Of a stretch of DNA of 48,193 nucleotides, positions 1,548-33,037 are shown in pieces. Location: assembly GCF_028274965.1 (NCBI RefSeq), contig NZ_JAQCNO010000017.1:1-48193 (forward strand), in the 5' to 3' direction. Numbering within the stretch: the first letter of the stretch is position 1; every line of letters begins with the position of its first letter. The position numbers and the translations under genes were made by a program. The notes below the pieces were generated by a model that was not told where the DNA came from, made no database searches, and saw nothing but the letters and a program-made list of their open reading frames with translations. This DNA comes from Natronomonas sp. Its GTDB lineage: Archaea > Halobacteriota > Halobacteria > Halobacteriales > Haloarculaceae.

Positions 1548-1575
1548 GTCAGCGGTTCTATATAAAGTCTTCGCA
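1548..1575 (-). promoter_or_regulatory. Chaperone promoter box of the left thermosome gene
   Basis: Reading the minus strand from 1575 down: a BRE-like CGAAGAC, then TTTATATAGAACCGCTGAC (1566-1548). The TATA element TTTATATA is centred about 30 nt from the ATG at 1532. The block TTTATWTAGAACCGCNGAC recurs upstream of hsp20 (24602) and of the second thermosome gene (33003), so the conservation goes beyond a generic TATA box. I infer a shared heat-shock-type promoter. Confidence 0.8.
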
Positions 1576-1623
1576 ACAGCCGGAGGACGGGGGGCGTTCA
1601 CACGGCCGAATTCGGCCGGCTTT

Positions 1624-2523
1624 TTATCGCCTGTCGTGGACCGTGACCGCCCGGTCGGTGCGGGCCGAGACGCCGCGTGGGTTCCGCCGCGGACTCCGGT
1701 CGCTGTAGCGGGCCCGGAGCCCGTCGACGTACCCCTTCGTGCCGCCGATGACGACGTCGCGGCCGTTCCCGAACCAGCTCGAGGGCCTGAGATCACCGCT
1801 CACGACGCCTCTGAGGGCCGCGCTCGCGTCCATCGCGGCGTGTCGGACCGTCCTGAGCGGCACCGTCGGGTTGACGCCGTAGTTCTTCGCCAACCGATAC
1901 GAGAGCGACCGGTAGCGCCTCCGCCAGTCGCGCTCGGTCGACCCGCCGTCGGCGGCGGCCTCCCGCGAGACGCACATCTCCGTCTCCCAGGCGACCTCGT
2001 ACCCGAGCCCGGCGATCCGGTGGGCGGCGTCGCGGGAGCCCCCGATCTCGAGGTACTCGTCGAACCCGTCGATGGCGTCCACGAGATCGCGGCTCAACGC
2101 CACGTTCCCGCCGTCGAAGTACGTAACCTCCCGCCCGCCGATCGTCCTCGTTTCTACGGTGTCCGTCGCAACGCCCGCCCCGAGGCGCTCGTGTGTCGGT
2201 CCGGTGGCGGCGTCGGCCTCCGAGAGCGCCCCGGTCACCGCGTCGAGCCACCCGGGCTCGACGGTCATCGTCGGGTCGACGAACGCGACGGCGTCGCCCT
2301 CGACGCGCTCGAGCCCGGCGTTGCGGGCGACGTTGACGTTGCGGTCGTCGATCCCCACGAGCACGTCGACGTCCTCGCGCTCTCTGACCATCCCGCTCGT
2401 TCCGTCGGTAGAGGGCCCGTTGACGACGACGAGCTCCGAGGGCGCTTCGGCGGCGACCGCGTCGAGACAGCGCCGGAGCTCGTCGCGGTCGTTCAGGGTC
2501 GGGACCACTACCGAGATATCCAT
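1624..2523 (-). CDS. Family 2 glycosyltransferase
   Basis: 299-residue GT-A fold glycosyltransferase. The N-terminus MDISVVVPTLNDRDELRRCL is the nucleotide-sugar-binding strand and helix of the GT2 family. NVARNAGLERVEGDAVAFVDP (about residues 63-83) covers the region where the DxD metal motif normally lies; here it reads VDPT, so the metal motif is degenerate. FDGGNVALSRDLVDAIDGFDE follows, as expected for GT2. No signal peptide or membrane segment is visible, so the enzyme is probably cytosolic. It lies 47 bp downstream of a methyltransferase on the same strand and may be cotranscribed with it. Donor and acceptor cannot be read from sequence. The last 40 residues are Arg-rich, which is unusual for this proteome. 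Confidence 0.85.
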   Translation of the reverse strand: MDISVVVPTLNDRDELRRCLDAVAAEAPSELVVVNGPSTDGTSGMVREREDVDVLVGIDDRNVNVARNAGLERVEGDAVAFVDPTMTVEPGWLDAVTGALSEADAATGPTHERLGAGVATDTVETRTIGGREVTYFDGGNVALSRDLVDAIDGFDEYLEIGGSRDAAHRIAGLGYEVAWETEMCVSREAAADGGSTERDWRRRYRSLSYRLAKNYGVNPTVPLRTVRHAAMDASAALRGVVSGDLRPSSWFGNGRDVVIGGTKGYVDGLRARYSDRSPRRNPRGVSARTDRAVTVHDRR

Positions 2524-2570
2524 ACCGCTACGTAGCGGGGCCGACGATCAAAAACCCCGTGGCTGCGCGT

Positions 2571-3293
2571 TCACCCCGGGACCCTGGCGTCCCAGTAGGA
2601 GACCGACGCGATCCGATCGCCGACCGCCGTCTCTCCCAGCGACGTGTCGAGCGCCCGAAACGGGCTCGCGACGCGCCTCGAGATCGCCCGATAGAACCCG
2701 TAGGGGAGGACGAAATCGTGATCGACGCCCGCGACCTCAAGGCCCGAGCCGACGACGAGCTCCCTCGCCTCCCGGCCCGAGTAGAGCCGCGACCCCATCG
2801 GCAGCGCCCAGTTGTACACCGAGCGGGCCGAATACCGGTTGAACGTGTCGAAAAACACCTGCCGCTTCGTCACCCGGCGCATCTCCCGGATGAACCCCTC
2901 GGGGTCCGGCGCGAGGTGGAAAAACCGCATCGCGAAGACGGCGTCGAAGTGGTCGTCGGGGAACGGGAGCCGACCGGCGTCGCCCTGCATGAACTCGAGG
3001 TCGCCGCCGACGCCGGTCGCGGCGGCCTTCCGTCGGCCCTGTTCGAGCATCGCCTCGGAGATGTCCATCCCGACGATGTCCGCCCCCCGGCCGGCGAGCA
3101 TCACGGTAAAGCGCCCGGTCCCGCAGGCGACCTCGAGTATCCGCTTGCCCTCAAGCGGTGCCAGCGCGTCGAGTACGGCCTCCTTCTCGCGGCGGTCGAT
3201 GAACTGCCCGCCGCCGGTGAAGCGCTTGTCGTCGTACGCCTCCGCGACGTCGTTCTCCTGGTACCACTCCTGTCCCTTCACGCTGTCCGACAC
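2571..3293 (-). CDS. Class I SAM-dependent methyltransferase (UbiE-like)
   Basis: 240-residue Rossmann methyltransferase. SAM-binding motif I is ILEVACGTGRF, followed by DIVGMDISEAMLEQ and the acidic DDHFDAVFAMRFFHL motif typical of the UbiE/type-11 group. The substrate is unknown. I chose the GTG at 3293 because a GGAG-like sequence precedes it and homology-like sequence begins with GQEWYQENDVAEAYDD; upstream in-frame codons give unlikely basic sequence. A TATA-like TGTATAAG (minus strand, about 3372-3365) could serve a leader of some 45 nt. It is divergent from the small regulator at 3445 and probably cotranscribed with the downstream glycosyltransferase. Confidence 0.85.
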   Translation of the reverse strand: MSDSVKGQEWYQENDVAEAYDDKRFTGGGQFIDRREKEAVLDALAPLEGKRILEVACGTGRFTVMLAGRGADIVGMDISEAMLEQGRRKAAATGVGGDLEFMQGDAGRLPFPDDHFDAVFAMRFFHLAPDPEGFIREMRRVTKRQVFFDTFNRYSARSVYNWALPMGSRLYSGREARELVVGSGLEVAGVDHDFVLPYGFYRAISRRVASPFRALDTSLGETAVGDRIASVSYWDARVPG

Positions 3294-3444
3294 CACCCTC
3301 CGGGGAACCAAAAGGATGCTGGATGCGCCCGACCGCCTGCCGACGCCCCGACCGCTCGGGTCCCCCTTATACACTCCAATGTGTTCGTATTGTTTGATCA
3401 CACATGTAGCGAAGCTTTACCAACGGGTTCCGAGCACACGCGGT

Positions 3445-3723
3445 ATGAGCACGACGACGGAGGACGGCTCACGCCGGACCGACTCGCCGCTGGCCGACCC
3501 GGAGTTCCGCGACACGCTTCGGGAACTCCCGCCGAGCGCGAAACTGGTAGCGCGGGTGCTCGGGGACGCCTCACCGCTCTCGCAGGGGCAACTCGCCGAG
3601 GAGTCGCTGCTCCCCGACCGGACGGTTCGGTACGCGCTGAACCGCCTCGAGGAACACGACCTCGTCGACTCGCGGCACTCGTTTCGGGACGCCCGACGGC
3701 GCGTCTACTTCCTCGCGCGGTGA
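3445..3723 (+). CDS. Small winged-helix (MarR-like) transcriptional regulator
   Basis: 92-residue protein made almost entirely of one winged helix-turn-helix: LPPSAKLVARVL, then SQGQLAEESLLPDRTVRYALNRLEEHDLVDSR, then the wing DARRRVYFLA. This pattern (helix, recognition helix TVRYALNRL, basic wing) is common in haloarchaeal MarR/ArsR-like proteins. The ATG at 3445 lies about 27 nt after a weak TATA-like CTTTAC (3415-3420), which suggests a leaderless mRNA. It is divergent from the methyltransferase/glycosyltransferase pair and could regulate it; that is inference from position only. The N-terminal 25 residues are a Ser/Thr/Asp-rich tail. Confidence 0.8.
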   Translation: MSTTTEDGSRRTDSPLADPEFRDTLRELPPSAKLVARVLGDASPLSQGQLAEESLLPDRTVRYALNRLEEHDLVDSRHSFRDARRRVYFLAR

Positions 3724-3775
3724 CCGTTTCCACCGACTCCCGCCGCCCGCCGTCGGGGCCGATCGCCCGGGGCGG

Positions 3776-4918
3776 TTAGGACCCCGTCTCCCCGAACCCG
3801 ACGGCCTCGGCGTCGGCACTGGCCCGCTTGGCGGCCGCATCGACATCGAACTCCGCGACGACCTCCCCGTCGCGCACCAGCGGTTCGAGCAGCGCCTCGC
3901 CCGCTTTTTGCCCCTCGTCGTCGGCCAACGCGACGTGGTGGCCCCCGTCGGGCGTCCGGTACACCTCCTTTTTGCCGGACAGCTTCCCCCGCTTTGCCGT
4001 CGGGGTCCCGTCGACCTCGACGATGTCGAGCGCGAAGTCGACCGGATCGGCGTTCGTGACGTGGCTCCCGACGCCGAAGCCGTCGACGACGTCCGCGAGA
4101 CGCCGGATCTCCGCCGGCGTGATCCCGCCGCTGACGAGGACATCCACGTCCCCGTGGCCGCGCTCGTTCAGCTTCCACCGCGTCTCGCGGACGATGTGCC
4201 GGAGATCCCCCCGGCGCGACCCCGTCGTGTCGAGCCGGACGCTGTCGAAGCCGAGCTCGGCGGCCCGGACGGCCTCGTCGACCTCGTCGTCGTACGTGTC
4301 ACACAGCGCGATGCGGGGCACGTCCGGTCCGACGGCGTCGTCGAACGCGCGCCAGGCCTCCTCTTGGTTTCCCGCCCCGAAACAGAGCATCAGCGCGTGC
4401 GGCATCGTCCCCGACGGCGCCCGGTCCATCAGCTCGCCGGCGGCGACGTGTGAGAACCCGTCGAACCCGCCGATGAGGGCGCTGCGGTCGACCGTCCCCG
4501 CGACGGCGGGGTGGACGTGTCGCGCGCCGAAACTCAGAAGCGACGCCTCCGGCGCCGCCCGCCGCGCTCCCAACGCGGCGGTCGCCATCGCCGTCGGGTG
4601 TGAGAGGAACCCGAGGAGGGCGGTCTCGAGCCGGCAGAACTCCAGGTACGGCCCTTCGATCCGGAGGACCGGGCCGCCGTCGAAGAGCGTCCCTTCGGGG
4701 AGCGCGTCGGCGTCCACGTCGCGGCCCGCAAGCAGCCGGGCGGCGTCCGCCACGCCCGCGAGGAGCTCGAACTCGCCGGTCGGAAACTGGTCGGCGGTCA
4801 CCTCCGCGACGACCTCCGGGTCCCGCCCGGCGTGCTCTAAGGCCTCCTCCGTCCGGAGAAAGTACGCGTCGGTCGCCCGCCCCTGTTCGATCGCTGCGTC
4901 GGGGACGATGTCGAACAT
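3776..4918 (-). CDS. pncB: Nicotinate phosphoribosyltransferase
   Basis: 380 residues. It joins nicotinate and PRPP to make nicotinate mononucleotide in the Preiss-Handler NAD salvage route in the cytosol. The call rests on ATDAYFLRTEEAL at the N-terminus, the phosphate-binding barrel segments LCDTYDDEVDEA and SVRLDTTGSRRGDLRHIVRE, and VLVSGGITPAEI followed by GFGVGSHVTN, which is the family's C-terminal PRPP/phosphate loop. Length and order match the archaeal NAPRTase family. It starts 36 bp after the end of the rio1 gene on the same strand, so citrate synthase, rio1 and this gene may form a run. Confidence 0.93.
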   Translation of the reverse strand: MFDIVPDAAIEQGRATDAYFLRTEEALEHAGRDPEVVAEVTADQFPTGEFELLAGVADAARLLAGRDVDADALPEGTLFDGGPVLRIEGPYLEFCRLETALLGFLSHPTAMATAALGARRAAPEASLLSFGARHVHPAVAGTVDRSALIGGFDGFSHVAAGELMDRAPSGTMPHALMLCFGAGNQEEAWRAFDDAVGPDVPRIALCDTYDDEVDEAVRAAELGFDSVRLDTTGSRRGDLRHIVRETRWKLNERGHGDVDVLVSGGITPAEIRRLADVVDGFGVGSHVTNADPVDFALDIVEVDGTPTAKRGKLSGKKEVYRTPDGGHHVALADDEGQKAGEALLEPLVRDGEVVAEFDVDAAAKRASADAEAVGFGETGS

Positions 4919-4954
4919 ACCGGTCCGTATCGCGGCGCGGATAAAAGACTGCGC

Positions 4955-5812
4955 TTACTCCGCCGTCGGATCGGCCTCGGTGACGGCCTCGAGCAGCGCG
5001 TCGGCGTCGGCGTCGACCCCCTGTCGGGCGAAGAACGCGGCGACGTTGTGACAGTCCCGCTCGAGGAGGCTCCGGCTGTTCGGGTGATGGACCGTGACCG
5101 CCTGTCCGAGGTCCAGAAAACAGAGCTCCCCGTCGTGGACGACGACGTTGTACTCCGAGAGGTCGCCGTGGACGAGTCCCGACCGGTAGAGCCGACGCAT
5201 GTACTCTCGGACGACCTCGTAGGTCGTCTCGGGGTTCTCGACGCGGACCTCGTTGAGCCGCTTCGCGCGGTCGTTCTCGGCGCCGAGGTACTCCATCACG
5301 AGGACGTTCCGCTCGATCGCGATCGGGTTCGGAACCCGGACGCCGCCCTCGCGTGCGCGCTTGAGGTTCGCGAACTCCTTTTTCGTCCACGCGACGACGA
5401 CCTTCTTTTTGTCCGATCCGATCCCCTCGAAGCGGGGGTCGCCGTCGAGGTACTCCCGCATGTGCCGGAAGTCGGAGGCGTTGATACGGTAGACCTTCAC
5501 GGCGACCTCGCCGTCGGGCGCTAACGCGGTGTAGACGTTCGCCTCCTTGCCGGTCGAGATCGCCCCGCCGAAGGCGTCGACGTACCCGTCCTGTACCAGC
5601 TTGTACAGCGCGCCAAGGGTGGCGTCGTCGAACACCGACGCCTCGACTTTAAACTGCTCTGTGTTCTTGATCCGCTTTCTGAACTCGAGGAACTCCCGGT
5701 CCTGTCTGCGGGCGATCCGGTCGGCCTCCGTGTCCGCGACGTCGATCTCCTCGAACTCGTCGCCGACCGGTTCGCCCTCCTCGATCTCGAGCAGACCGTG
5801 TTCCTCGCTCAT
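4955..5812 (-). CDS. rio1: RIO1-type atypical serine/threonine protein kinase
   Basis: 285 residues. RIO1 ATPase/kinases act in late maturation of the small ribosomal subunit. Visible features are the ATP-binding loop STGKEANVY (86-94), the lysine of VAVKVYR (K106), the catalytic loop HGDLSEYN (215-222) and the metal-binding DLGQA (234-238). STGKEANVY separates RIO1 from RIO2, and there is no N-terminal winged helix as in RIO2. The first 45 residues are acidic and probably flexible. The 3' end is 36 bp from pncB. Confident as RIO1; archaeal substrates are not known from sequence. Confidence 0.95.
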   Translation of the reverse strand: MSEEHGLLEIEEGEPVGDEFEEIDVADTEADRIARRQDREFLEFRKRIKNTEQFKVEASVFDDATLGALYKLVQDGYVDAFGGAISTGKEANVYTALAPDGEVAVKVYRINASDFRHMREYLDGDPRFEGIGSDKKKVVVAWTKKEFANLKRAREGGVRVPNPIAIERNVLVMEYLGAENDRAKRLNEVRVENPETTYEVVREYMRRLYRSGLVHGDLSEYNVVVHDGELCFLDLGQAVTVHHPNSRSLLERDCHNVAAFFARQGVDADADALLEAVTEADPTAE

Positions 5813-5905
5813 TCCCTAACGGTAGGCGCCGCCGCCTGAAATCCCCACCGGTCGAGCCACCGCGACGCCCCGGGCGGGGACGCCGACCGCCTGCGGCGTT
5901 TCGAT

Positions 5906-7039
5906 CTACCGCTCTTCGATCGGCGTGACGGTCCGATCGGCCGGCCCGGCGTACCGCGAGCGCGGGCGGATGAGGCGGTTGTCGTCGTACTGTTCGAGGA
6001 CGTGGGCGATCCACCCGCCGACGCGGCTCATCGCGAAGATCGGCGTGTAGATGTCGACCGGGATCCCCATCTGGTAGTACGTCGACGCGGAGTAGAAATC
6101 GACGTTCGGCGCGAGCCCCTTCTCGTCGGTGAGGTGCTCCTCGAGGGTCGTCGAGTACTCGTACCACTTCATGTCCCCGGCCTCGCCAAGCGCCTTCGAT
6201 TGCTCGCTCAGGATCGTCGCCCGCGGGTCCTTGACGCTGTAGACGCGGTGGCCGAACCCGGGCACGCGGCGGCCCTCGTCGATCGCGTCGACGGCCCACT
6301 GGAGGGGGTCCTTATCAGAGTCGTCGACCTCCTTGAGCATCTCCATGACGTCCTGGTTGGCCCCGCCGTGGAGGCTCCCCGAGAGCGTCCCGATCGCCGA
6401 GGTGACCGCGGCGTGGAGGTCGGCGAGCGTCGAGGACGTGACCCGAGCGGAGAACGTCGAGGCGTTCACCCCGTGGTCGGCGTGCAACACGAGCGCCATG
6501 TCGAACGTCTCGGCGAGGACCTCGTCGGGCACCTCGCCGTTGAGCATGTACAGGAAGTTGCTCGCGTGTCCGAGGTCGGTTCGGGGCTCGACCGGGTCCT
6601 CGCCGTCCCGAAGCCGGGCGAACGCCGCGAGCGCGGTCGGGATCTTCGCCGTGATCCGGCGTCCCTTCCGGACGTTCGCGTCGACGTCGGTCGGATCGGC
6701 GTCCGCGTCCGGATCGTACGCCGAAAGCGTCGAGACGATCGTCCGGAGCGCCGCCATCGGGTTCTCGTCGGCCGCCGCGAGGTCCTCGATGAGGCGGTAG
6801 ACCCCCTCATCGAGCTGTCGCTCCTCGGCCATGGCCTCCTCGAACGCCGACAGCTCCTCGGCGGTCGGCAACTCGCCGTGCCACAGCAGGTACACGACCT
6901 CCTCGAAACTCGCGTTCCGCGCCAGGTCGTCTATGCTGTACCCGCAATAGACGAGTCGTCCATCGTCGCCGCCGATGTAACTCAGCGACGATTCGGCGAC
7001 GAGAACGCCCTCCAACCCTTTTTTGAGTTCCTCGGACAT
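5906..7039 (-). CDS. citZ: Citrate synthase
   Basis: 377 residues. It condenses acetyl-CoA and oxaloacetate to citrate at the entry of the TCA cycle. The catalytic triad is visible: H224 in SLHGGANQD, H264 in VPGFGHRVY and D314 in NVDFYSAS. LHADHGVNASTF (185-196) is also a family signature. Length fits the short archaeal/type I form. The ATG at 7039 is preceded on the minus strand by a TATA-like AAATAATAACC some 36 nt upstream. Aconitase, the next enzyme, lies at 45061-47046 in the same window but far from this gene. Confidence 0.96.
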   Translation of the reverse strand: MSEELKKGLEGVLVAESSLSYIGGDDGRLVYCGYSIDDLARNASFEEVVYLLWHGELPTAEELSAFEEAMAEERQLDEGVYRLIEDLAAADENPMAALRTIVSTLSAYDPDADADPTDVDANVRKGRRITAKIPTALAAFARLRDGEDPVEPRTDLGHASNFLYMLNGEVPDEVLAETFDMALVLHADHGVNASTFSARVTSSTLADLHAAVTSAIGTLSGSLHGGANQDVMEMLKEVDDSDKDPLQWAVDAIDEGRRVPGFGHRVYSVKDPRATILSEQSKALGEAGDMKWYEYSTTLEEHLTDEKGLAPNVDFYSASTYYQMGIPVDIYTPIFAMSRVGGWIAHVLEQYDDNRLIRPRSRYAGPADRTVTPIEER

Positions 7040-7185
7040 GTACGGAGGATTCCTATGCCCGGGAGAAAAGGGTTATTATTTGTGAAAAACGCCGCGTCCG
7101 AACCGCGAACGCCCGGGTTCGTCCGCTGCGGAAAACGCAGCGGGTATCAGTAGGCATAATAGCGCAGACCGATGGAGTACCGGTA
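7040..7185. promoter_or_regulatory. Divergent promoter region between citrate synthase and the deacylase gene
   Basis: 146-bp spacer between two divergently read genes. Towards citrate synthase (minus) an AAATAATAA element lies at about 7080-7071. Towards the deacylase (plus) CATAATAG lies at about 7154-7161, some 28 nt before its ATG at 7186, which fits a leaderless mRNA. No strong palindrome is visible. Confidence 0.5.
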
Positions 7186-8142
7186 ATGACCACTCTCGGC
7201 ACCGCGAGCGCGTCCCCCGGCGAGATGGACACGGGGCGGCTCCGGGTCGGCGAAGCGAGAGACGGCTCGGAGGTCGGGCTCCCGGTCGCGGTCGTCAACG
7301 GCCGACGCGACGGCAAGACGCTGTACGTCCAGGCCGTCTCCGACGGGGACGAACTCAACGGGCTCGGCGTCGTCCAGCGGCTCGTCCCCCAACTCGACCC
7401 CGAGGAACTTTCCGGTGAGATCCTCGTCGTCGGTGTCGTGAACCTCTATGGCTTCCGAAGCGCCGAACACCGCAACCCGATCGACGACACGAAGCTCAAC
7501 CGGACCTACCCGGGCAACGATTCGGGGACGGCCTCGGAGCGCATCGCCGCGGCGACGTTCGAGGCGGTGGGTCGGTCGGACCTCGTGTTGGACCTCCATC
7601 AGGGCTCGACGTCGTGTATGATAAACGAGACCCGCGTTCGGTGCGGGTCGCGCCACCGGCTCCACCGCGACTGTCTCGAACTCGCGAAGGTGTTCGGCTG
7701 CGGGTACATCCTCGACCGGAAGGGTCCCGACGGGCAACTCGCCCGCGCCGCCCCGGACGAGGGGATCCCGGCGATCGACCCCGAACTCGGGGGCTCCGTC
7801 GGCTGGGACGAGGCGTCGATCCGGAAGGGCCTCAAGGGCGTGTTCAACGTCCTCTACCGGTACGGCTTCCTCGATGGGGGCATCACCACCGAACCCCAGA
7901 CCCGCGCGACCGGGTTCAGACAGTACGGCTCGCCGACCGGCGGCCTCGTGAAATTCGACGTCGAACTCGGCGAGGACGTCAGCCGCGGCGAGACGCTGTT
8001 CGAGATCACGGACCCGTTCGGAACCGTCAAACAGCAGGTGACGGCCGACTCGAGCGGGATCCTCTGGCGACACCGCCGGCTCCCACAGGTCGCCACCGGC
8101 GAGTACGTCTGTTCGGTCGGCACCGACCTCGACGAGTACTGA
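7186..8142 (+). CDS. Succinylglutamate desuccinylase/aspartoacylase-family protein with an altered metal ligand
   Basis: 318 residues of the M14-like AspA/AstE zinc-hydrolase fold. The LYVQAVSDGDELNG segment (around residues 46-59) corresponds to the canonical first zinc motif HGxE, but the histidine position is Asp and only the glutamate is kept. The arginine and substrate-binding KLNRTYPG motif and the third ligand in LVLDLHQGS are present. The C-terminal 80 residues (PTGGLVKFDVELGEDVSRGETLFEI) form the barrel-sandwich domain seen in this family. The substrate is unknown; deacylation of an N-acyl amino acid or similar amide is the family activity. My recollection is that haloarchaeal homologues often share this change, so it may be a lineage variant rather than a dead enzyme. 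Confidence 0.82.
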   Translation: MTTLGTASASPGEMDTGRLRVGEARDGSEVGLPVAVVNGRRDGKTLYVQAVSDGDELNGLGVVQRLVPQLDPEELSGEILVVGVVNLYGFRSAEHRNPIDDTKLNRTYPGNDSGTASERIAAATFEAVGRSDLVLDLHQGSTSCMINETRVRCGSRHRLHRDCLELAKVFGCGYILDRKGPDGQLARAAPDEGIPAIDPELGGSVGWDEASIRKGLKGVFNVLYRYGFLDGGITTEPQTRATGFRQYGSPTGGLVKFDVELGEDVSRGETLFEITDPFGTVKQQVTADSSGILWRHRRLPQVATGEYVCSVGTDLDEY

Positions 8143-8301
8143 GCCCCGTTATTTATGTCCGATACCGCGCCCAGACCCGGCGTGTCCTGACCCTCTGTCG
8201 GCGACGACCGAGGCGGTTGTGCGGACCGTCGTCGCCGATCGCCGCGGCCCGCCTGTTCGCCCGCCCGAACTGACAAGACCGACCGCCGGTAACGCACACG
8301 C

Positions 8302-9378: not shown

Positions 9379-9398
9379 CCCGCCGCACCGGGGCCGTC

Positions 9399-10667: not shown

Positions 10668-10762
10668 TTCTGCGGCTACGACGCGCCCGAGTAACGGCGT
10701 TTCGGTCCGTCCCCGCCGGGCGCGGCCGTTTTCGATCCGAACCGACCGACAGCGGGGAAACG

Positions 10763-10770: not shown

Positions 10771-10793
10771 TGGGAAAACATCTATATACCACT

Positions 10794-24533: not shown

Positions 24534-24594
24534 GCCTCCGGTAGTCGGCGGTCGGCAAAAAGCGCCTCGACAGCGTGACCGGCCGAGCCTGTTT

Positions 24595-24620
24595 CGAAAG
24601 ATTTATTTAGAACCGCCGAC
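24595..24620 (+). promoter_or_regulatory. Chaperone promoter box of hsp20
   Basis: CGAAAGA followed by TTTATTTAGAACCGCCGAC (24602-24620). The same 19-nt block with the same CGAA-N3 lead precedes the left thermosome gene, and the block also precedes the right one. The TATA element TTTATTTA is 45 nt from the ATG, so this mRNA has a leader of roughly 19 nt that contains a GAGGTGA ribosome-binding site at 24638-24644, unlike most genes in the window. Confidence 0.8.
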
Positions 24621-24650
24621 AATTATCTACTGCAACCGAGGTGAACAGCA

Positions 24651-25022
24651 ATGGCACTGCCCACGAGCCCGACGAACTCATGGATGCAGAGCCTCGATTT
24701 CCCGAGTCGGCTGTTCGGGACCGAACGCAGCGACTACGAACTGTACGAGGACGGCGACGACTTCGTGTTGAGCGTCGAGTTGCCGGGGTTCGACCCCGAC
24801 GAGATCTCGGTGACCTGGCAGGACGGCGTCCTCAACGTCGCCGCCGAGCACGACGACGAGGCGCGCGGTAGGCGACAGACGTACCACCGGCGCTTCCGGT
24901 TCCCGAAGGACGTCGACGACGACGCGATCTCCGCCGAGTACACGAACGGCATCCTCGAGGTGCGGCTCCCGATCGTCTCGGGGGCGACGGTCACCGGCAC
25001 CGAGATCGAGATCGAAGCGTAA
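24651..25022 (+). CDS. hsp20: Hsp20/alpha-crystallin small heat-shock protein
   Basis: 123 residues. ATP-independent holdase that keeps unfolding proteins soluble. The alpha-crystallin domain spans about residues 25-123: DYELYEDGDDFVLSVELPGFDPDEISV, then GVLNVAAEHDDE, then FRFPKDVDDDAISAEYTNGILEVRLP, where the A-x-x-x-N-G-x-L motif ends in the LP dipeptide. The N-terminal arm is short (SWMQSLDFPSRLFG). The gene has both a strong TATA box and a ribosome-binding site. Shared promoter sequence with the thermosome genes points to common heat-shock control. Confidence 0.95.
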   Translation: MALPTSPTNSWMQSLDFPSRLFGTERSDYELYEDGDDFVLSVELPGFDPDEISVTWQDGVLNVAAEHDDEARGRRQTYHRRFRFPKDVDDDAISAEYTNGILEVRLPIVSGATVTGTEIEIEA

Positions 25023-25168
25023 GGCGGCTGAAACGGCCGTTTAAGCCCGTTTTTCGACGCCCGACCCCGACCGCCGAGCCGCCGGCGCGACGCGGGGTAG
25101 GCGACGTTTTATTTCCCGGCGCGCCGGTGGATGCGTATGCACCGACCGACCGTCCGGGGGCGACCCGC

Positions 25169-26428
25169 GTGAGCGACACCGAGATCGAAGCCCTCAGCGC
25201 GCGCGAGATACTCGATAACCGACTGGAGCCGACGCTCCGCGTGACGGTGCGGACCGCGGGCGGCACGACCGGCCGGGCCGACGTTCCCCGCGGCCGTTCG
25301 CGGGGCGGCCACGAGGCGACGGACAAACGCGACGGCGGGGACCGCTACCGGGGGTTGGGCGTCCGAGACGCCGTCGAGACGGTCAAAACCCGGATCGCCC
25401 CGGAACTGCGGGGCCGCGACGTCACCGACCAGGCCGGGATCGACGCGTCGATGGGGACGCTCGACGGCACCGCCGACCGCTCCGACCTCGGCGGCAACGC
25501 GATGACTGGCGTCTCGCTTGCGGTCCTGAAGGCGGGGGCGAACGCGCACGATCTCCCGCTGTACCGGTACCTCGGCGGCCCGGCGGCGACGGCCATCCCG
25601 GTTCCGGTGGTCGATCTCATCGAGGGCGGCGAACTCGGTGCGAGCGGGCTCCCGTTCCAGGAGCACCAGATCGTCCCGAGGGGGGCCGAGGACTTCGCGG
25701 AGGCCATCCGGCTGTGCGCCGAGGTCTACTACGAACTGGGCGACGTACTCGCCGAGCGCTACGGTCCGGGCGCCCGAAGCGTCGGCGACGAGGGCGGGTA
25801 CACCCCCTCGGGACTGACCGACCCCCGCGAGGCGCTCGATCGGCTCCTCGAGGCGATCGAGGCCTGCGGCTACGGGGGCGTGTTCGGGCTGTCGATCGAC
25901 GCCGCCGCCACGCAGTTGTACGATCCGGACGCGGAGCGCTACCGGCTGGCCGACGGGACGTACACCCGCGGCGAACTGATCGAGTACTACGCCGATCTCG
26001 CCTCGGCGTACCCGCTGGTCTCGATCGAGGACCCCCTCGTTGAGGACGACTTCGAGGGCTTTGCGGCGCTCTCGGAGCGCCTCGACGCGCAGATCGTGGG
26101 CGACGACCTCTTCGCGACGAACGCCGGCCGGATCGAACGCGGGATCGACGCCGGTGCCGGCGACGCGCTGCTGTGTAAGGTCAATCAGGTCGGCACGGTG
26201 ACCGAGACTATCGCGGCGGTCGAGACGGCCCGCCGCGGCGGGTACGCCCTCCAGGTCTCCGAGCGCTCCGGACAGACGGCCGACACCTGGCTCGCCGACG
26301 TCGCCGTCGGACTCGGGGCCGACCAGATCAAGACCGGAACCACGCGCAGCGAGCGGACCGAACAGTACAACCGTCTGCTGGAGATCGCCGACGGCTCCAG
26401 CGGCGAGTACGCGGAGTGGCCCCGATGA
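25169..26428 (+). CDS. Divergent enolase-superfamily protein (enolase-like)
   Basis: 419 residues, collinear with enolase. Metal and catalytic positions are kept: E208 in SVGDEGGYTP, D244 in LSIDAAATQLY, E287 in SIEDPLVEDD, D312 in VGDDLFATN, K337 in LLCKVNQVGT and K388 in IKTGTTRSER. Both conserved active-site histidines are changed: yeast H159 aligns without gaps to L156 (GGELGA before the conserved QE), and H373 in SHRSG is E365 in SERSG. The S39 loop reads PRGRSRGG instead of PSGASTG. The GTG at 25169 follows a TATA-like TTTTATTT (25106-25113), which rules out the GTG at 25127. It overlaps the glycerate kinase gene by ATGA. Enolase activity is plausible from context (2-phosphoglycerate to PEP) but the changed residues suggest another or altered substrate. 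Confidence 0.85.
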   Translation: MSDTEIEALSAREILDNRLEPTLRVTVRTAGGTTGRADVPRGRSRGGHEATDKRDGGDRYRGLGVRDAVETVKTRIAPELRGRDVTDQAGIDASMGTLDGTADRSDLGGNAMTGVSLAVLKAGANAHDLPLYRYLGGPAATAIPVPVVDLIEGGELGASGLPFQEHQIVPRGAEDFAEAIRLCAEVYYELGDVLAERYGPGARSVGDEGGYTPSGLTDPREALDRLLEAIEACGYGGVFGLSIDAAATQLYDPDAERYRLADGTYTRGELIEYYADLASAYPLVSIEDPLVEDDFEGFAALSERLDAQIVGDDLFATNAGRIERGIDAGAGDALLCKVNQVGTVTETIAAVETARRGGYALQVSERSGQTADTWLADVAVGLGADQIKTGTTRSERTEQYNRLLEIADGSSGEYAEWPR

Positions 26429-27801
26429 GCGCCGAACACGGAGCCGACGGGTTCGTCCGGAACCGGGCGCAGTTGCTCGAAGGCGGTGATCGCGCGGGTC
26501 GTCGCGTCGTCCTCGACGTCTTGGAGGACGCCCTCGCCGCGTTGGCCCCCGAAACGCTGCTCGGGGATGTCCTCTCGCTTGAGGACGATCGGCTGACCGT
26601 CGACGGCGTCGCGTACGACCTCGCCGGATTCGAGGAGCGGTACCTGCTCGCCGTCGGGAAGGGGTCAGCGTCCTTCGCCGCCGCCGCCGAGGAACTCCTC
26701 GGCGATCGGCTGACCGGCGGCCTCGTCGTCGACGAGCGCGTCACGGTCGAGATCGACGGCATCGAGACCCGCGAAGCCGACCACCCGATCCCGACGGCGG
26801 CGAGCGAACGCGCCGGCGACGCCGCGCTCTCTCTCGCCGACCGGGCCGGCCCGGAGGACCTGGTGATCGCCGTCGTTACGGGCGGCGCGTCGGCGCTGCT
26901 TTCGGCCCCGCCCGAGGGCGTGACCGTCGCCGAGCAGGCGGCGATCACCGACGCGCTGTTGCGCGCCGGCGCGCCGATCGAGGACCTCAACGCCGTCCGG
27001 AAGCACCTGAGCCGGATCAAGGGCGGTCGGCTGACCGAACGGCTCCGCCCGGCGACGGTCACCGATCTCGTCGTGATCGACGAGGCCGCGGGCGTCCCCT
27101 GGGGCCCGACGGTCCCCGACGCGACGACGGCCGCCGACGCGGTTTCGGCGCTGCGGCGCCACGGCTGTTGGGCGGACGCGCCGGAGGCGATCAGAGAGCA
27201 CCTCCGCCGGGCGGGCGAGGGCACGCCGAGTTCCTTCGCGGACCCGCCGCACACGGTCGTTCTCGCCGACGGGCCGGACGCCTGCCGCGCGGCCGCCGAG
27301 AGCGCCCGTTCGCGCGGGATCGACGCGGCGGTGCTCTCGACGTCGATCGAGGGCGAAAGCCGGACCGTCGCCGCGACGCTTTCGAGCGTCGCCGCCGAGA
27401 TCGCCGAGACCGGCCGCCCGTTCGAACCGCCCTGTGTGTTGGTCTCCGGCGGCGAAACGACCGTCACCGTCGGCTCCGAGTCCGACCCCGGGACGGGCGG
27501 GCCGAACCAGGAGTTCGCCTTGGGCTGTGCCGCCCGGATCGCGGGCACCGACAGCACCGTCCTCGCCGTCGACACCGACGGGACCGACGGGCCGACCGAC
27601 CGAGCCGGCGGGATCGTCGACGGCCACACGTTACGGCGGGCGGCCGACTCGGGGGTCGACGTCGACGCCGCCCTCCGGGCGCACGACGCGACGGGGGCGC
27701 TCGCCGACCTCGGCGACGACGTCCTCGCCCGCCCCGGAACGAACGTCAACGACCTCCGGCTGATCTACGTCGCCGAACGGTCCGATCCGGCCGACGGCTG
27801 A
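26425..27801 (+). CDS. gckA: Glycerate 2-kinase (MOFRL family)
   Basis: 458 residues. It phosphorylates D-glycerate to 2-phosphoglycerate with ATP. The N-terminal domain carries YLLAVGKGSASFAAAAEELL, ADHPIPTAASERAGDAAL and VVTGGASALLSAPPEGV, with NAVRKHLSRIKGGRL; the C-terminal MOFRL domain has VLVSGGETTVTV, GPNQEFALGCA, DTDGTDGPTDRAGGIVDG and the closing PGTNVNDLRLIYV. The ATG at 26425 overlaps the stop of the enolase-like gene, so the two are translationally coupled and should act in sequence on 2-phosphoglycerate. Confidence 0.93.
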   Translation: MSAEHGADGFVRNRAQLLEGGDRAGRRVVLDVLEDALAALAPETLLGDVLSLEDDRLTVDGVAYDLAGFEERYLLAVGKGSASFAAAAEELLGDRLTGGLVVDERVTVEIDGIETREADHPIPTAASERAGDAALSLADRAGPEDLVIAVVTGGASALLSAPPEGVTVAEQAAITDALLRAGAPIEDLNAVRKHLSRIKGGRLTERLRPATVTDLVVIDEAAGVPWGPTVPDATTAADAVSALRRHGCWADAPEAIREHLRRAGEGTPSSFADPPHTVVLADGPDACRAAAESARSRGIDAAVLSTSIEGESRTVAATLSSVAAEIAETGRPFEPPCVLVSGGETTVTVGSESDPGTGGPNQEFALGCAARIAGTDSTVLAVDTDGTDGPTDRAGGIVDGHTLRRAADSGVDVDAALRAHDATGALADLGDDVLARPGTNVNDLRLIYVAERSDPADG

Positions 27802-27865
27802 GCCCGTCGCTTCGGGTCGAACCGTCGCCCGCCGGCCGGCGGTTGGGGTGGCCGCGCCCGCCGGA

Positions 27866-28849
27866 TCACAGCAGCAACAGCCCGGCGATCGCGATCGCGA
27901 TCCAGACCACCTTCAGCGCCGTGTTCACGATGATCACCTTCGTCCCGAACTCCGCCCCCCAGATCCCGTACTGAAACGGGATCGACCGCTTGAACGTCGA
28001 GACGGTAAAGGAGACGATGCCGCCGATGAGCATCGTCACGACGGCCGCCCGGGCGCCGAACGTCCCGTCCTCGACGAGCGGGGCGATCGTCAACGCGCCG
28101 CTCGTGGTGTCGAAGGCGTACACGACGATGACGGGCACGGCCGCGCTCGGCAGCCCGGTCAGCGCCGCGAGGGGATCGGCCGCCCCGCCCGTCAGCGACT
28201 CGAGGTCGTAGTACGTCGTCCCGACGACGACGAGCGTGTACACGACGGCGAGCCGCGGGAGGATCTCCCGGGTCTTCTCGAGGCCGCCGCGGCCGGACTC
28301 GATCAGCTTCTCCCGGACCGCCCTGTCGTCGCCGCCGTCGGCTCTCGTTTCGCCTTCGACGTCGGCCCCCGCACCCGGCGTCACGTTCCGCTCCGAGAGC
28401 AACAGCGCGCCGGCGACGACGCCGGTTGCGGTGATCGCAAGCGAGATCCCGGCCCGCGTCCCGACGTACAACAGCCCGACCCGGAGCCCGAGTATCGGGA
28501 TCAACACCGGCGCGTAGAAGGTGAAGATGTGCTGGACGAACCCGAAGAACGTGTTGATCGTCACGGCGACGAGCGTCGCCCGATCATCGAGCAGCCCCGA
28601 ATCGCGGTACTCGGCGAGCATCCCGTACCCCGCGGTCGTGGAGGCGGCCGTCGTCAGGATCGCACCGCCGACCTCGCTCGGCAGGTTCGCCGGCTCGGTC
28701 AGCGGCTTCGACAGCGCCGCGACGTACCGTATCGCCCCGAAGGCGACGAGGACGTTCGCGAACGCGACGCCGGCGGCGATCGCGACCGCGATCGTCAGCA
28801 CTCGCGGGAGCACCTCCCCGACGAGCAGCGAGCCGATCGCGGGGTCCAT
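27866..28849 (-). CDS. Gate/nucleoside-recognition domain membrane protein
   Basis: 327 residues with about eight hydrophobic segments, for example VLTIAVAIAAGVAFANVLVAF, TLVAVTINTFFGFVQHIFTF, SLAITATGVVAGALLL, LAVVYTLVVVGTTYY, AAVPVIVVYAF and VVWIAIAIAGLLLL. The pattern of two similar halves with LSKPLTEPANLP and a helix pair around GGAILTTAASTTAGYGML fits the gate-domain (SpoIIM/NupC-like nucleoside recognition) family. A charged cytosolic loop of about 45 residues, very Asp/Glu-rich, separates the halves. Transported solute unknown. It is convergent with gckA and divergent from proC. Confidence 0.8.
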   Translation of the reverse strand: MDPAIGSLLVGEVLPRVLTIAVAIAAGVAFANVLVAFGAIRYVAALSKPLTEPANLPSEVGGAILTTAASTTAGYGMLAEYRDSGLLDDRATLVAVTINTFFGFVQHIFTFYAPVLIPILGLRVGLLYVGTRAGISLAITATGVVAGALLLSERNVTPGAGADVEGETRADGGDDRAVREKLIESGRGGLEKTREILPRLAVVYTLVVVGTTYYDLESLTGGAADPLAALTGLPSAAVPVIVVYAFDTTSGALTIAPLVEDGTFGARAAVVTMLIGGIVSFTVSTFKRSIPFQYGIWGAEFGTKVIIVNTALKVVWIAIAIAGLLLL

Positions 28850-28960
28850 TCGGCCCGACCTTGGGACCGTCGGACCGAAACCGTTGTGCTTCGCGGGCGG
28901 TCACCCCCGGCGACGGAAACCGCAGTTGGTATGTTTTCGCACGCACTCGGTACAGCCACG

Positions 28961-29737
28961 ATGACACGAGTGAGCGTTATCGGCTGCGGGAACATGGGCG
29001 GTGCCTTCCTGAAGGGTCTTGCCCGGGACGGATCGTACCACCTGACCGCGATCGACCTCGATCCCGAGGCGCTCGCGGCGATCGAGGAGCACGCCTCGGA
29101 GACGACAGACGACGTCGCGGCGGCCCGGGACGCCGACGTCGTCGTCCTCGCCGTGAAGCCGGACATCGCCGAGGCGGTGCTCGAAGGTCTCGATCTCACC
29201 GCCCACCAGACGCTCGTGACGCTCGCAGCCGGCGTCTCGCGGGGGTTCGTCGCCGCGCGCACCGACGCGTCGGTCGTCCGGATCATGCCCAACCTCGCCG
29301 CCGAGACGGGGAACATGGCCGCGGCCGCGACCGCCGAGGGGCTCACCGACGAGGTGCGGGGGATCCTCGACGCCCTCGGGGAGTTCGTCGAGATCGACGA
29401 GGGGCTGATGGACGTCTCGACGGCGCTCAACGGGAGCGGCCCGGCGTTCGGCTTTTATCTCATCGACGCGATGAAACGGGCCGGCGTCGAGGGCGGCCTT
29501 GACCCCGATCAGGCCGAGACGCTCGCCGCCCAGACGTTCAAGGGCGCTGCCGAGACGGTCCTCCGGGACGAACGGAGCGTCGACGAGCTCATCGACGCCG
29601 TCTGTTCGCCGAACGGGACGACGATCGAGGGGATGGAGGTTCTGTGGGACAGCGACGCCGACGAGGCGGTGATCGACGCCGTCGCCGCGGCCGAACGGCG
29701 CTCCGGGGAGATCGCCGAGGCCTTCGAGAATGAGTGA
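28961..29737 (+). CDS. proC: Pyrroline-5-carboxylate reductase
   Basis: 258 residues. Last step of proline synthesis, reducing 1-pyrroline-5-carboxylate with NAD(P)H. The Rossmann motif is [15 protein letters not shown] at residues 5-19, followed by [24 protein letters not shown], and the C-terminal signature [19 protein letters not shown] and [13 protein letters not shown]. The ATG at 28961 gives the canonical short lead into the Rossmann strand; an in-frame ATG at 28931 would add ten residues. It overlaps proB by eight bases. It is the first gene of a proC-proB-proA operon. Confidence 0.95.
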
Positions 29738-30578
29738 GACGGCGCGCGTCGAAGCGGTCGACCCCGAGATCACCGATCGGGCCCGGGCGCTCGCCGCCGA
29801 GGCCGATCGCGTCCTCGTCAAGGTCGGCACGAACTCGCTGACCGACGCGGACTCCCGGCTCGACCGGGTGAAGCTCGACAAGCTGGTCGCCGACATCATG
29901 GACCTCCGCGACCGCGACAAGGAGGTCGTGTTGGTCTCCTCGGGGGCCGTCGGCGCGGGGATGGGCCGGCTCGACCAGGAGACCGGCGCTCTCGCCGAGA
30001 GCCAGGCGCTCTCGACGGTCGGCCAGAGCCACCTGATGCGGCACTACACGCAGAGCTTCGACCGGTACGACCAGACCGTCGCGCAGATCCTCCTGAGCGG
30101 CAACGACTTGGACGCCCCCGAGCGGCTCAACAACTTCCGGAACACGATCGAGACGCTGCTCGAGTGGGGCGTCGTTCCGATCATCAACGAGAACGACGCC
30201 GTTGCGACCGACGAGCTCCGGATCGGCGACAACGACATGCTCTCGGCGTCGGTCGCGCTGGGGATCGGCGTCGACCTGTTGGTGACGCTGACGGACGTCG
30301 ACGGCGTCTACACCGGCAACCCCAAGCGGGATCCCAACGCCGAGCGCATCGAGGCCGTCGGCGCAAACTACGACGCCGTCCGGGGGCTCGTCGACGACAG
30401 CACGACCGCGAGCTTCGGCGGCATCCGGACGAAAGTCGAGGGCGCACACGACGTCAGCGAACACGGCGTGCCGGCCGTCATCGCCGGCTCGGCCGAGCCA
30501 GACGTGCTCGAGCGGATCGCCGCGGGCGAACCGACCGGAACCCTGTTCGTACCCACATCGGAGGACGCCAATGAGTGA
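29730..30578 (+). CDS. proB: Glutamate 5-kinase
   Basis: 282 residues. It makes gamma-glutamyl phosphate from glutamate and ATP, the first step of proline synthesis. Amino-acid-kinase-fold motifs are [50 protein letters not shown] and [13 protein letters not shown], with [11 protein letters not shown] near the end. There is no C-terminal PUA domain, which many bacterial ProB proteins carry, so this is the short form. The ATG lies inside the end of proC (ATGAGTGA), and the same eight-base overlap is used again at the proA junction. Confidence 0.95.
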
Positions 30579-31926
30579 ACACGACACCGACACTGACGCC
30601 GACGCAGACACCGATAGACTGGTCGCCGAGGCACAGCGCGCCGCGTTGCGGCTCGCCAACGTCGACGAGGCGACGCGGAACGCGGCGCTCGAATCGATCG
30701 CCGACGCGCTCCGCGAGCGCGAGGCGGAGATCCTCTCGGCCAACGCCGCCGACGTCGAGGAGGCCGAGGCGATGCTCGAGCGCGGCGAGTACACCCAAGC
30801 GCTCGTCGACCGGCTGAAACTGGATTCGGGGAAGATCGACGACATCGCCGGGATGGTCGAGTCCGTCGCCGCACAGGACGACCCCCTCGGGGAGACCCTC
30901 GAGGCGCGCGAACTCGACGCGGACCTCGAACTCTACCGCGTCTCCGTTCCGATCGGCGTCGTCGCGACGGTCTTCGAGTCCCGGCCCGACGCCTTGGTCC
31001 AGATCGCCGCCCTCGCGCTGAAGTCCGGCAACGCCGTGATCCTCAAGGGTGGCAGCGAGGCCCGCGAGTCCAACCGGGCTCTCTACGAGATCATCCGGGA
31101 GGCGACGGCGGACCTCCCGGACGGGTGGGCCGGGCTGATCGAGGCCCACGAGGAGGTCGATCGCCTCCTGGAGTTGGACGACGCGGTCGATCTCGTGATG
31201 CCCCGCGGCTCCTCGGAGTTCGTCTCGTACATCCAGAACAACACCCAGATCCCCGTGTTGGGCCACACCGAGGGCGTCTGTCACGTCTACGTCGACGACG
31301 AGGCCGACCTCTCGATGGCCGAGGACATCGCCGTCGACGCGAAAGTCCAGTACCCGGCCGTGTGTAACGCCGTCGAGACGCTGTTGGTGCACGAAGCCGT
31401 CGCCGCCGACCTCCTGCCGCGGCTCGTCGATCGGTACGCCGAGGCGGGCGTCGAACTGCGCGGCGACGCCGCGACCCGCGAGATCGTCGACGTCGGCGCG
31501 GCCACCGACGCCGACTGGGAGACGGAGTACGGCGACCTCGAGTTGTCGATCAGACTGGTCGGCGACGTCTTCGAGGCGGTCGAACACGTCAACGCCCACG
31601 GCTCGAAACACACCGAGTCGATCGTCACGGAGAGCGCCGAGGCGGCCGAGACGTTCATGACGGGGATCGACGCGGCGAGCGTCTTTCACAACGCGTCGAC
31701 GCGCTTTGCGGACGGCTACCGCTACGGGCTCGGCGCCGAGGTCGGCATCTCGACCGGCAAGACGCACGCCCGCGGCCCCGTCGGTCTCGAGGGCCTGACG
31801 ACGTACAAGTACTACCTCGAGGGCGACGGACACCTCGTTGCGAGCTACTCGGGGCCGGACGCGCTCCCGTTTACCCACCGCGATCTCGACGCCGGGTGGA
31901 CACCTGGGGAGCGATCGACCCGTTGA
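30571..31926 (+). CDS. proA: Glutamate-5-semialdehyde dehydrogenase (gamma-glutamyl phosphate reductase)
   Basis: 451 residues of the aldehyde dehydrogenase superfamily. It reduces gamma-glutamyl phosphate to glutamate semialdehyde. Diagnostic pieces are [50 protein letters not shown] and the active-site cysteine in [27 protein letters not shown] and [19 protein letters not shown] follow. The first 15 residues are an acidic Asp/Thr repeat, a typical haloarchaeal tail. Last gene of the proline operon; transcription ends near the convergent rlmE gene. Confidence 0.95.
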
Positions 31927-31931
31927 AAAAA
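31926..31931 (-). terminator. Short T-tract after rlmE
   Basis: A6 on the plus strand, read as T6 on the minus strand, lies about 14 nt beyond the rlmE stop codon and next to the convergent proA stop. Archaeal terminators are typically T-rich tracts, so this is a plausible but minimal terminator for rlmE. Confidence 0.4.
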
Positions 31932-31944
31932 GCCCGACTCGCCG

Positions 31945-32703
31945 TCACCCGACGCGGTCGGCGAACCCGAACCGCGGTTTGATGTCGGTGACCTCGATCT
32001 CGACGCTGTCGCCGGGCTCGGTCCCGGAGACGAAAAGCGTGTAGCCCTCGACCTTCGCGACCCCGTCGCCCTCGCCGCCGGTGTCCTCGATTTCGACCTC
32101 GAGGCGGTCGCCGGGCCGCACCGGCGCGGTCAGCCGCCCCTTCGCGACCATGTACAGCTCCGAGGAGGCGTCCCGCGAGGCGTCCGGGTGGATCGTCCGG
32201 ACGTACTCGAACTCCTCGCCGATGTCCGCCCGGAGGCCGTCCGTGTCGGGCCCCTCGAAGATCTTGGCGACGAAATCGCCGCCCGGCGCGAGCAACTCCA
32301 GCGCCGTCTCGAAGGCGATCCGGGCGAGATGCGCCGACCGCGCGTGATCGAGCGAGTACTCGCCGGTCATGTTCGGGGCCATATCGGAGACGACCGCCTC
32401 GGCCTCCCCGACCAGGTCGACGACCTCCTCGCGCGTTTCGGTCTCAGTCATGTCGCCGCGGACGGTCTCGACGCCGTCGATCGGATCGATCCGCTGTCGG
32501 TCGACGCCGACGACGGTCCCGCCCTCACCCGCGAGCTCCGTTGCGACCTGTAGCCACCCGCCGGGGGCGGCGCCGAGGTCGACGACGGTGTCGCCCTCGC
32601 CGATCAACTCCGCCTCGGCGTCGAGCTGTTCGAGCTTGTACGCGGCCCGGCTCCGGTAGCCCTCCTGTTTGGCCCGATTATAATACTCGTCGCGGTTCGT
32701 CAT
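31945..32703 (-). CDS. rlmE: 23S rRNA (uridine-2'-O-)methyltransferase RlmE/FtsJ with C-terminal TRAM domain
   Basis: 252 residues. It methylates the ribose of a conserved uridine in the ribosomal A loop. RSRAAYKLEQLD supplies K23, VVDLGAAPGGWLQ is motif I, VVSDMAPNMTG holds D107, FVAKIFEG holds K147 and SSELYMVAKG holds E182, giving the full K-D-K-E tetrad. Residues 191-252 (RPGDRLEVEIEDTGGEGDGVAKVEGYTLFV...) are a TRAM RNA-binding domain, a fusion typical of haloarchaea. The ATG at 32703 is chosen because the family begins with NRDEYYNRAKQEGYRSRAAY; upstream in-frame sequence is Arg-rich and not homologous. Confidence 0.93.
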   Translation of the reverse strand: MTNRDEYYNRAKQEGYRSRAAYKLEQLDAEAELIGEGDTVVDLGAAPGGWLQVATELAGEGGTVVGVDRQRIDPIDGVETVRGDMTETETREEVVDLVGEAEAVVSDMAPNMTGEYSLDHARSAHLARIAFETALELLAPGGDFVAKIFEGPDTDGLRADIGEEFEYVRTIHPDASRDASSELYMVAKGRLTAPVRPGDRLEVEIEDTGGEGDGVAKVEGYTLFVSGTEPGDSVEIEVTDIKPRFGFADRVG

Positions 32704-33037
32704 GCGTCTCTCACCGAACCCCTCGAGGCGTCCCGCGGGGGAAACGCCGGCGAATTCGCGTTCATACACGGACGGACGCCGTCGGCCCGGAAAACCGCGT
32801 CGGACGAGCGCGCCCGGACCGTTCGGGGTGACGATGCGGCCCGCGGCCCGCGCGGTACCCCTACAAAAAGGCCCCGGCAGCAGAGACCCGCCGCGGCGCG
32901 GCCGGCTCCGGGACAACGGTTCTCAAAGCGCCGCTTTCGGTCGGTTTTATCGGACCCGATCGCGGCGACGACCGCGGCCGCTCGTCGCGCGTTACAGTTA
33001 CATTTATATAGAACCGCGGACAATCATCCGGACGACT
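32704..33037. other. 334-bp divergent spacer between rlmE and the thermosome gene
   Basis: No coding sequence that I can support. The left two thirds are GC-rich with short CG-rich inverted repeats. The right end carries the thermosome promoter. A separate TATA-like GGTTTTATCGG lies near 32943-32953, pointing to the plus strand, about 60 bp before the thermosome TATA box. No clear TATA box for rlmE was found. Confidence 0.5.
32991..33021 (+). promoter_or_regulatory. Chaperone promoter box of the right thermosome gene
   Basis: TTTATATAGAACCGCGGAC at 33003-33021, the third copy of the 19-nt block. The TATA element is about 31 nt from the ATG at 33038, giving a leader of about 4 nt. It is directly preceded by a tandem hexamer GTTACAGTTACA (32991-33002) in place of the CGAA-type BRE seen at the other two chaperone promoters. 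Confidence 0.8.

Follow-up and report, generated by a model that had tools for sequence, protein, structure and literature searches.

The three chaperone genes of the analysed DNA, a 48,193-nucleotide window that is the whole of one contig (C38) of a Natronomonas-group genome (G000; 2.28 Mb, 73 contigs, 94% complete), share in their promoters a block composed of the TATA box and the sequence directly behind it. The block is a genuine promoter signal specific to chaperone genes, joined to the TATA box and found in similar form across the sampled haloarchaea and their relatives; the element is phased with the TATA box, asymmetric and spread over most of the sampled families. It probably switches the protein-rescue genes together. 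We assign a probability of about 50% to the block being a regulon-specific extended core promoter, read within the pre-initiation complex, with a site for a dedicated factor close behind in likelihood.

The pattern TTTATWTAGAACCGCNGAC occurs in the window as three mismatch-free copies, at 1548-1566 (minus strand), 24602-24620 (plus) and 33003-33021 (plus), and has no further place there even with up to 3 mismatches, against a mean chance expectation of 0.01 in 100 dinucleotide shuffles of the window. Seventeen of the 19 positions are invariant among the copies, and their flanks are dissimilar except for bases resembling the B recognition element (BRE). Each copy supplies a chaperonin or Hsp20 gene with an upstream TATA-like box: copy 1 (TTTATATA at 1566-1559, then the downstream element GAACCGCTGAC) precedes the left thermosome gene, copy 2 (TTTATTTA, then GAACCGCCGAC) hsp20, and copy 3 (TTTATATA, then GAACCGCGGAC) the right thermosome gene. 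The earlier note on this DNA had reported these positions, strands and genes as well as the 17 invariant positions, all of which were confirmed by exact matches and by PF00118 and HSP20 hits. A sequence model, R1, built from 77 chaperone promoters (none of them from G000, some from two same-genus genomes), scored the three copies at E 0.0055, 1.1e-4 and 4.6e-5, respectively; its training sites had been selected for AT-rich bases followed by GAA, and its E-values are rough. The note had also drawn attention to CGAA three bases upstream of the block. This tetramer is indeed read at two of the three copies (1570-1573, minus; 24595-24598, plus) but it is the ordinary BRE upstream of the TATA box: because it matches both the general haloarchaeal BRE, CGAAA (PMC4983044; here and below, papers are cited for the passages available from them), and the profile consensus of 84 thermosome promoters, it was ruled out as a component of the special element.

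To define the anatomy of the element, 111 thermosome upstream regions were analysed (from among the matches listed, 40 of 118 prepared rows being left out). An AT-rich box followed by GAA was present in 101 of them by a fixed rule and in 104 when the misses were read by eye; a simple regular expression had given 84 of 111, overlooking boxes like CTTATATA, and the fixed rule was used instead. At thermosome genes all 47 TATA 8-mers had GAA directly behind them, as against 1 of 48 at a control set of 420 predicted open reading frames (ORFs; p 1.5e-26), so that these promoters are not general BRE/TATA promoters, in which no gene-class-specific sequence lies downstream of TATA. The profile of the 84 promoters, which were selected for GAA, reads CGAAA-N2-TTTATATA-GAA-N3-C-A-A-N-C-A-A-T-C, with conservation after GAA of 93% (C), 80% (A), 96% (C), 81% (A) and 85% (A); at positions 19-40 upstream of GAA conservation did not exceed 0.33 bits. 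Since the training selection demanded AT-rich bases and then GAA, neither the R1 matches nor the 100% GAA of the profile is independent evidence for this triplet, which is independently supported by the 47/47 comparison, by anchoring on the TATA box alone (this also puts GAA directly behind TATA) and by R1 in genomes without training sequences. The wider consensus is TATATA-GAA-N3-C-AA-N-CAA, the fourth to sixth bases behind the TATA box being variable: CCG in the source clade and TCA, GGA, AGT or others elsewhere. Thus, the exact AGAACCGC that the earlier note had singled out stands as the version of the source clade and some others, and the wider consensus is looser.

The distance to the TATA box is fixed, as in core elements of the downstream-BRE (BREd) or proximal promoter element (PPE) type: TATA adjacency was seen in all aligned copies but one, among 77 promoters whose selection required AT-rich bases before GAA, and the misaligned exception, a short-hsp20 row (L302), results from the selection rule. 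Self-complementarity was 0.345, compared with 0.362 in shuffled sequences, and the element thus has no dyad symmetry of the kind expected of a Phr- or HSR1-type operator. The HSR1 site is a palindrome; a palindromic operator was ruled out here by this shuffle-level value.

When up to 3 mismatches are allowed, TTTATWTAGAACCGCNGAC is matched at five places in G000, and the reversed-pattern control at none. They comprise the three window copies, one place on contig C44 before a third thermosome gene (1 mismatch), and a 3-mismatch place near a gene read from its translation as valS, which we take for chance. A fourth thermosome gene, on contig C9, carries a diverged copy, TTTATATAGAATCACAATC. R1 (E ≤1) found five sites among the candidates scored in G000, namely those of the four thermosome genes and hsp20. 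Among the TTTATWTA boxes of this genome (at least 22, the listing being incomplete as the ends of the pattern excluded T), only two of the 22 listed were followed by GAA, both before thermosome genes. The block is thus specific genome-wide; the earlier note had reported its lack at the non-chaperone promoters it had examined. It should be considered that in many genomes 150 of a larger number of first-look candidates were scored with R1, so that its counts are lower bounds and weaker members of the regulon may be missed.

The same specificity was observed across haloarchaea. In ten haloarchaeal genomes, 31 of the 32 R1 matches at E ≤1 were thermosome or hsp20 promoters, as checked by coordinates among the candidates scored, the exception being L349 (E 0.41); for the five genomes that had contributed no training sequence the figure was 15 of 16 (although the training set drew on two other genomes of the Natronomonas group). 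The pattern itself was searched with up to 2 mismatches in 145 haloarchaeal genomes and was carried by 66 of them. It matched at 91 places, whereas the reversed pattern matched at 5. Coordinates identified a chaperone gene downstream of 26 places, and tblastn with the 900 bases that follow the block did so for 54 of the other 65; in sum, 80 of the 91 precede chaperone genes, 75 of them thermosome and 5 Hsp20. The other 11 include four that represent one orthologous spot in a single genus (L174-L177, genus g27), and the remaining seven look like chance when set against the 5 reversed-pattern matches. The block is thus not frequent before unrelated genes, an outcome that would have spoken against the earlier note. 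In 60 genus representatives, a relaxed pattern keeping only the last two TATA-box bases matched at 59 places and its reverse at 4. Of the 59, 55 lie before thermosome genes and 1 before hsp20, and one of the other three (L320) is followed by an apparently broken hsp20 frame. Four individual places were set aside, L005, L318 (at a sulfatase gene and not TATA-phased), L319 (inside an ORF) and L349. When one variant was searched for in named genomes of bacteria and archaea, a thermosome gene lay directly downstream in 41 of 69 loci; the 28 loci without one were all bacterial records, many showing one kind of coding sequence. A 37-base stretch searched against plasmids gave two short rhizobial matches only.

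The earlier note had set the block in a haloarchaeal context. It is not confined to haloarchaea, as it occurs in most of the sampled families of the phylum (Halobacteriota) and also at grpE. From 60 genomes of the phylum, 30 non-haloarchaeal thermosome loci were obtained, and 24 of them had one R1 match each, always at the thermosome promoter (e.g. TTTATATAGAACCACAAACCAATTTTAG); the 30 loci (128,501 bases) contained no R1 match elsewhere. In 20 whole non-haloarchaeal genomes, R1 at E ≤0.1 gave 41 matches among the candidates scored, distributed over 17 genomes; the non-haloarchaeal set may include methanogens and relatives of Archaeoglobus. After assignment (30 loci were read, five thermosome and one grpE matches were placed by coordinates, and the last five were read), 34 of the 41 proved to be at chaperone genes, 22 thermosome and 12 grpE, and GrpE was confirmed by Pfam for ten proteins. 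The block precedes grpE in 12 of the 17 non-haloarchaeal genomes having GrpE according to the pattern, and in 11 of 17 according to R1. Overall, the block was found at thermosome or grpE genes in 24 of 26 sampled families, in one (f23) weakly (E 0.023); in f19 it was not present on reading, and in f16, where the thermosome promoter was unread, no match lay at a chaperone gene. Within 180 nt upstream of these non-haloarchaeal thermosome and grpE genes, GAA followed 43 of 91 TATA boxes, compared with 12 of 516 at other positions (p 1.6e-29); R1 had had a part in the choice of these loci. In one genome (G162, L422) grpE is preceded by tandem block promoters, at 1260-1285 and 1356-1385, 96 nt apart.

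Being asymmetric and locked to the TATA box, the block is read as a regulon-specific core-promoter element, and the combination of TATA adjacency with the lack of dyad symmetry points to the pre-initiation complex or to a factor working with it. The downstream element (GAA-N3-CAA-N-CAAT; GAACCGCNGACAATC in the source clade) is 14-15 bp long and follows the TATA box immediately and in constant register. Judging from the usual archaeal geometry, it would occupy positions of about -23 to -9 and so extend into the -10 region. In the mechanism we propose, it would be read inside the footprint of the pre-initiation complex, as an element of BREd or proximal-promoter type contacted by transcription factor B (TFB)/TFE and RNA polymerase beside TBP, and would mark the promoters of thermosome, one Hsp20 class and, in other Halobacteriota, grpE-dnaK for coordinated heat-responsive initiation. 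That the block promoters respond to heat is suggested by the same gene classes in Halobacterium, where heat shock raised cctA 8.7-fold and hsp5 3.0-fold (PMC1971269). There are precedents in other promoters: BRE plus TATA is sufficient for the heat response of hsp5 (review PMC9133787), and in Sulfolobus acidocaldarius the strongly heat-induced genes have a more conserved BRE and PPE (PMC10653856).

Several observations weigh against this core-promoter reading. The chaperone restriction of the block exceeds the needs of a mere strength element and would be explained directly by a dedicated regulator; a general pre-initiation complex built with the only TFB of a genome does not on its own account for a response specific to heat; and GAA and CAAT, one helical turn apart, could also be read by a separate DNA-binding protein. 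Coverage is incomplete as well. Seven of the 111 thermosome upstreams lack the block (L048, L255, L257, L259, L263, L267 and L281), none of the 8 haloarchaeal grpE genes has it by pattern or R1, and seven of the 41 R1 matches outside haloarchaea lie at other genes (L406, L408 and L449-L453). Most of the hsp20 genes inspected are without the block: versions of TTTATTAC-GAACCGCNGACAATCATC were found at some short ones, and by the fixed rule applied to the thermosome genes 9 of 37 short hsp20 upstreams and none of the 30 top-scoring ones (three of which are shared with the short set) have it; the regulon therefore covers one Hsp20 class, not all. The cdc48 genes of Halobacterium are heat-induced as well (PMC1971269), and R1 in the ten haloarchaeal genomes gave no match outside thermosome and hsp20 promoters but the one at E 0.41, the cdc48 promoters themselves not having been inspected, so that other heat routes are likely.

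Some of these exceptions deserve a brief description. The block-free thermosome genes each belong to a genome with at least 4 thermosome-family genes, and most have a TTTTTGG- or TTTGTGG-like sequence instead. Five of 30 other hsp20 genes have the heptamer GAACCGC bare, without a TATA box, in their upstream regions, and the heptamer is for this reason uninformative on its own. L406, L408 and L451-L453 were set aside. Of the other two non-chaperone matches, both in one genome, that at L449 (gene at 1500-2507) is a weak block-like promoter with GAT for GAA (E 0.046) before a gene for a PRK04140-family helix-turn-helix (HTH) regulator, a possible candidate reader of the block, and that at L450 (gene at 1500-2455) a weak match (E 0.065) before the heat-shock protease gene htpX.

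The strongest alternative, tentative but serious, is that the block is the operator of a putative dedicated heat-shock regulator beside the TATA box, which would either keep TFB or RNA polymerase out until heat releases it, like Phr in function, or help to recruit them. The strict chaperone specificity, the sharing of the block by three unrelated chaperone families, its presence in genomes showing a single TFB and the spacing of its two most conserved triplets, one turn apart, all fit such a protein, as do the weak site before the PRK04140-family gene and a reverse copy that four genomes of a single genus have some 120 nt ahead of dnaK. Against it stand the missing dyad symmetry, the Phr site being palindromic (PMC10746257), the direct contact with TATA that every aligned copy except one shows, and the lack in G000 of any regulator gene with the block at E ≤1. 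The downstream half, which the earlier note had suspected of being an operator or start-proximal signal, is upheld as a chaperone-regulon element, specific in the genome and in haloarchaea and common to the unrelated thermosome and Hsp20 genes, and the term operator is unproven. As to the reverse copy, it lies at 2001-2019 of L174-L177 and points away from dnaK, whose start is a likely one; its flanks are conserved too, and it may represent a divergent promoter, a binding site that works in either orientation, or a coincidence.

A second and much less likely alternative, proposed for the hsp5 genes of Halobacterium and Haloferax, is that the block is the recognition code of an alternative, heat-induced TFB of the TFB2/TfbB type. 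TFB2/TfbB act on the hsp5 promoter (review PMC9133787), tfb2 is heat-induced in H. volcanii (PMC2121645), and haloarchaea have several TFBs: in G000, 11 matches to the TFIIB repeat are spread over six contigs and probably represent some five to six genes. This possession of several TFBs, which an alternative-TFB promoter class requires, does not hold generally: exactly one TFB gene (two TFIIB repeats) was found in 14 of the 20 non-haloarchaeal genomes, 11 of which have block promoters, although some of these assemblies are 90-98% complete and a second TFB gene could be missing from them. At the block promoters of those 11 genomes the sole TFB would work, which makes an alternative TFB unlikely as the ancestral reader, and the alternative-TFB code was rejected as the ancestral meaning of the block; a TFB role may have been added in multi-TFB haloarchaea as a later refinement. 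Least credible of all is chance or a function-free leftover homology of duplicated promoters: the thermosome genes are paralogous and part of their likeness was possibly inherited, but the unrelated hsp20 and grpE also have the block, which rules out paralogue inheritance alone, the sequence farther upstream of TATA is hardly conserved, the block recurs in 24 of 26 families, and chance was ruled out by the shuffle expectation of 0.01 and the reversed-pattern controls (0, 5 and 4 matches).

Among the closest known systems is the cct1 core promoter of Haloferax volcanii, in which TATA-adjacent elements reportedly govern heat inducibility, according to work attributed to Kuo in 1997 and to Thompson and Daniels in 1998. 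This too is a chaperonin gene with a TATA-like box and adjacent sequence elements; what the present analysis gives the downstream element is a consensus, a regulon (thermosome, Hsp20 and grpE) and a wide reach within the phylum. In animals, regulon-specific core elements such as TCT are core-promoter sequences confined to one functional gene class, and the likeness to these is one of working only, no relation of sequence or factor being claimed. The hsp5 promoter of Haloferax and Halobacterium, served by TFB2/TfbB, likewise drives a small Hsp20 gene, and the window hsp20 looks to be of the same short type; the passages available from the review name BRE and TATA only for its heat response (PMC9133787), in contrast to the present element, which lies downstream of TATA and is distributed also over genomes showing one TFB gene. 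The Phr operator of Pyrococcus furiosus serves heat-shock genes as well, from a site between TATA and the start region, but it is a palindrome (PMC10746257) within a 29-bp stretch overlapping the start site (PMC9133787), unlike the asymmetric, TATA-abutting element described here. In Sulfolobus, conserved PPE positions between TATA and the melted region are tied to strong heat induction, and the available passages report no separate operator for the heat-induced genes (PMC10653856); there a general element is strengthened, whereas here a chaperone-specific sequence sits directly behind TATA.

For cct1 and hsp5, heat-inducible promoters whose determinants adjoin the TATA box have already been published and are cited in the literature. 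The downstream element is not named in the literature passages surveyed, with most subscription journals outside their coverage, and we do not claim that it is unpublished; new here are its consensus, its regulon, the extension to grpE and to most sampled families, and the single-TFB argument. A review passage states that in halophilic archaea heat-shock regulation of the Phr or HSR1 kind has not been identified (PMC9133787). A short, exactly placed element marking chaperone genes and little else makes haloarchaeal heat-shock control directly testable, and suggests that archaeal core promoters may carry regulon identity. A wider proposal, for which the odds fall a little short of even, is that one ancestral TATA-fused heat-shock cis-element has governed thermosome, Hsp20 and GrpE-DnaK since early Halobacteriota, read by an undescribed factor or a basal-factor mode, with a scope like that of the sigma-32 or HSF regulon.

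The genes behind the three window promoters and their leaders were also annotated. The left thermosome (Cpn60/TCP1) gene (1-1532, minus; start codon 1532-1530) is truncated by the contig end (PF00118 match at 3-1532, E 1.1e-142). The hsp20 gene (24651-25022, plus; PF00011 match for 24651-25019, E 3.6e-16) encodes a short-type protein of 123 aa that by reading looks Hsp5-like; its leader contains a Shine-Dalgarno-like GAGGTGA (24638-24644, plus), and 49 nt separate the TATA start from the ATG. The right thermosome gene (33038-34723, plus; 561 aa; PF00118 match for 33038-34720, E 1.2e-167) has 35 nt between TATA start and ATG, the most frequent spacing, and is predicted to be leaderless or to have a leader of a few nucleotides. 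The putative -10 part of the extended block, at a presumed position relative to the start site, reads CAATTA at hsp20 (24620-24625, plus), with CAAT conserved at the same offset in the promoter profile, and CAATCA at the right thermosome gene (33021-33026, plus), at an offset conserved in both the profile and the alignment. Across thermosome genes the ATG most often lies 34-35 nt from the TATA start, a spacing that implies leaderless transcripts or very short leaders, and a Shine-Dalgarno-like motif was present in 14 of 14 longer leaders and in 5 of 89 short ones. The thermosome gene of contig C9 (L056, L203) sits on a contig of 3.7 kb; among same-genus relatives, two have three PF00118 genes each (among the matches listed) and four have three block sites each, and the extra gene possibly reflects a strain mixture in the assembly. 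Finally, at L320 a block-like match (2001-2017) lies just upstream of a frame resembling a broken short hsp20 gene.

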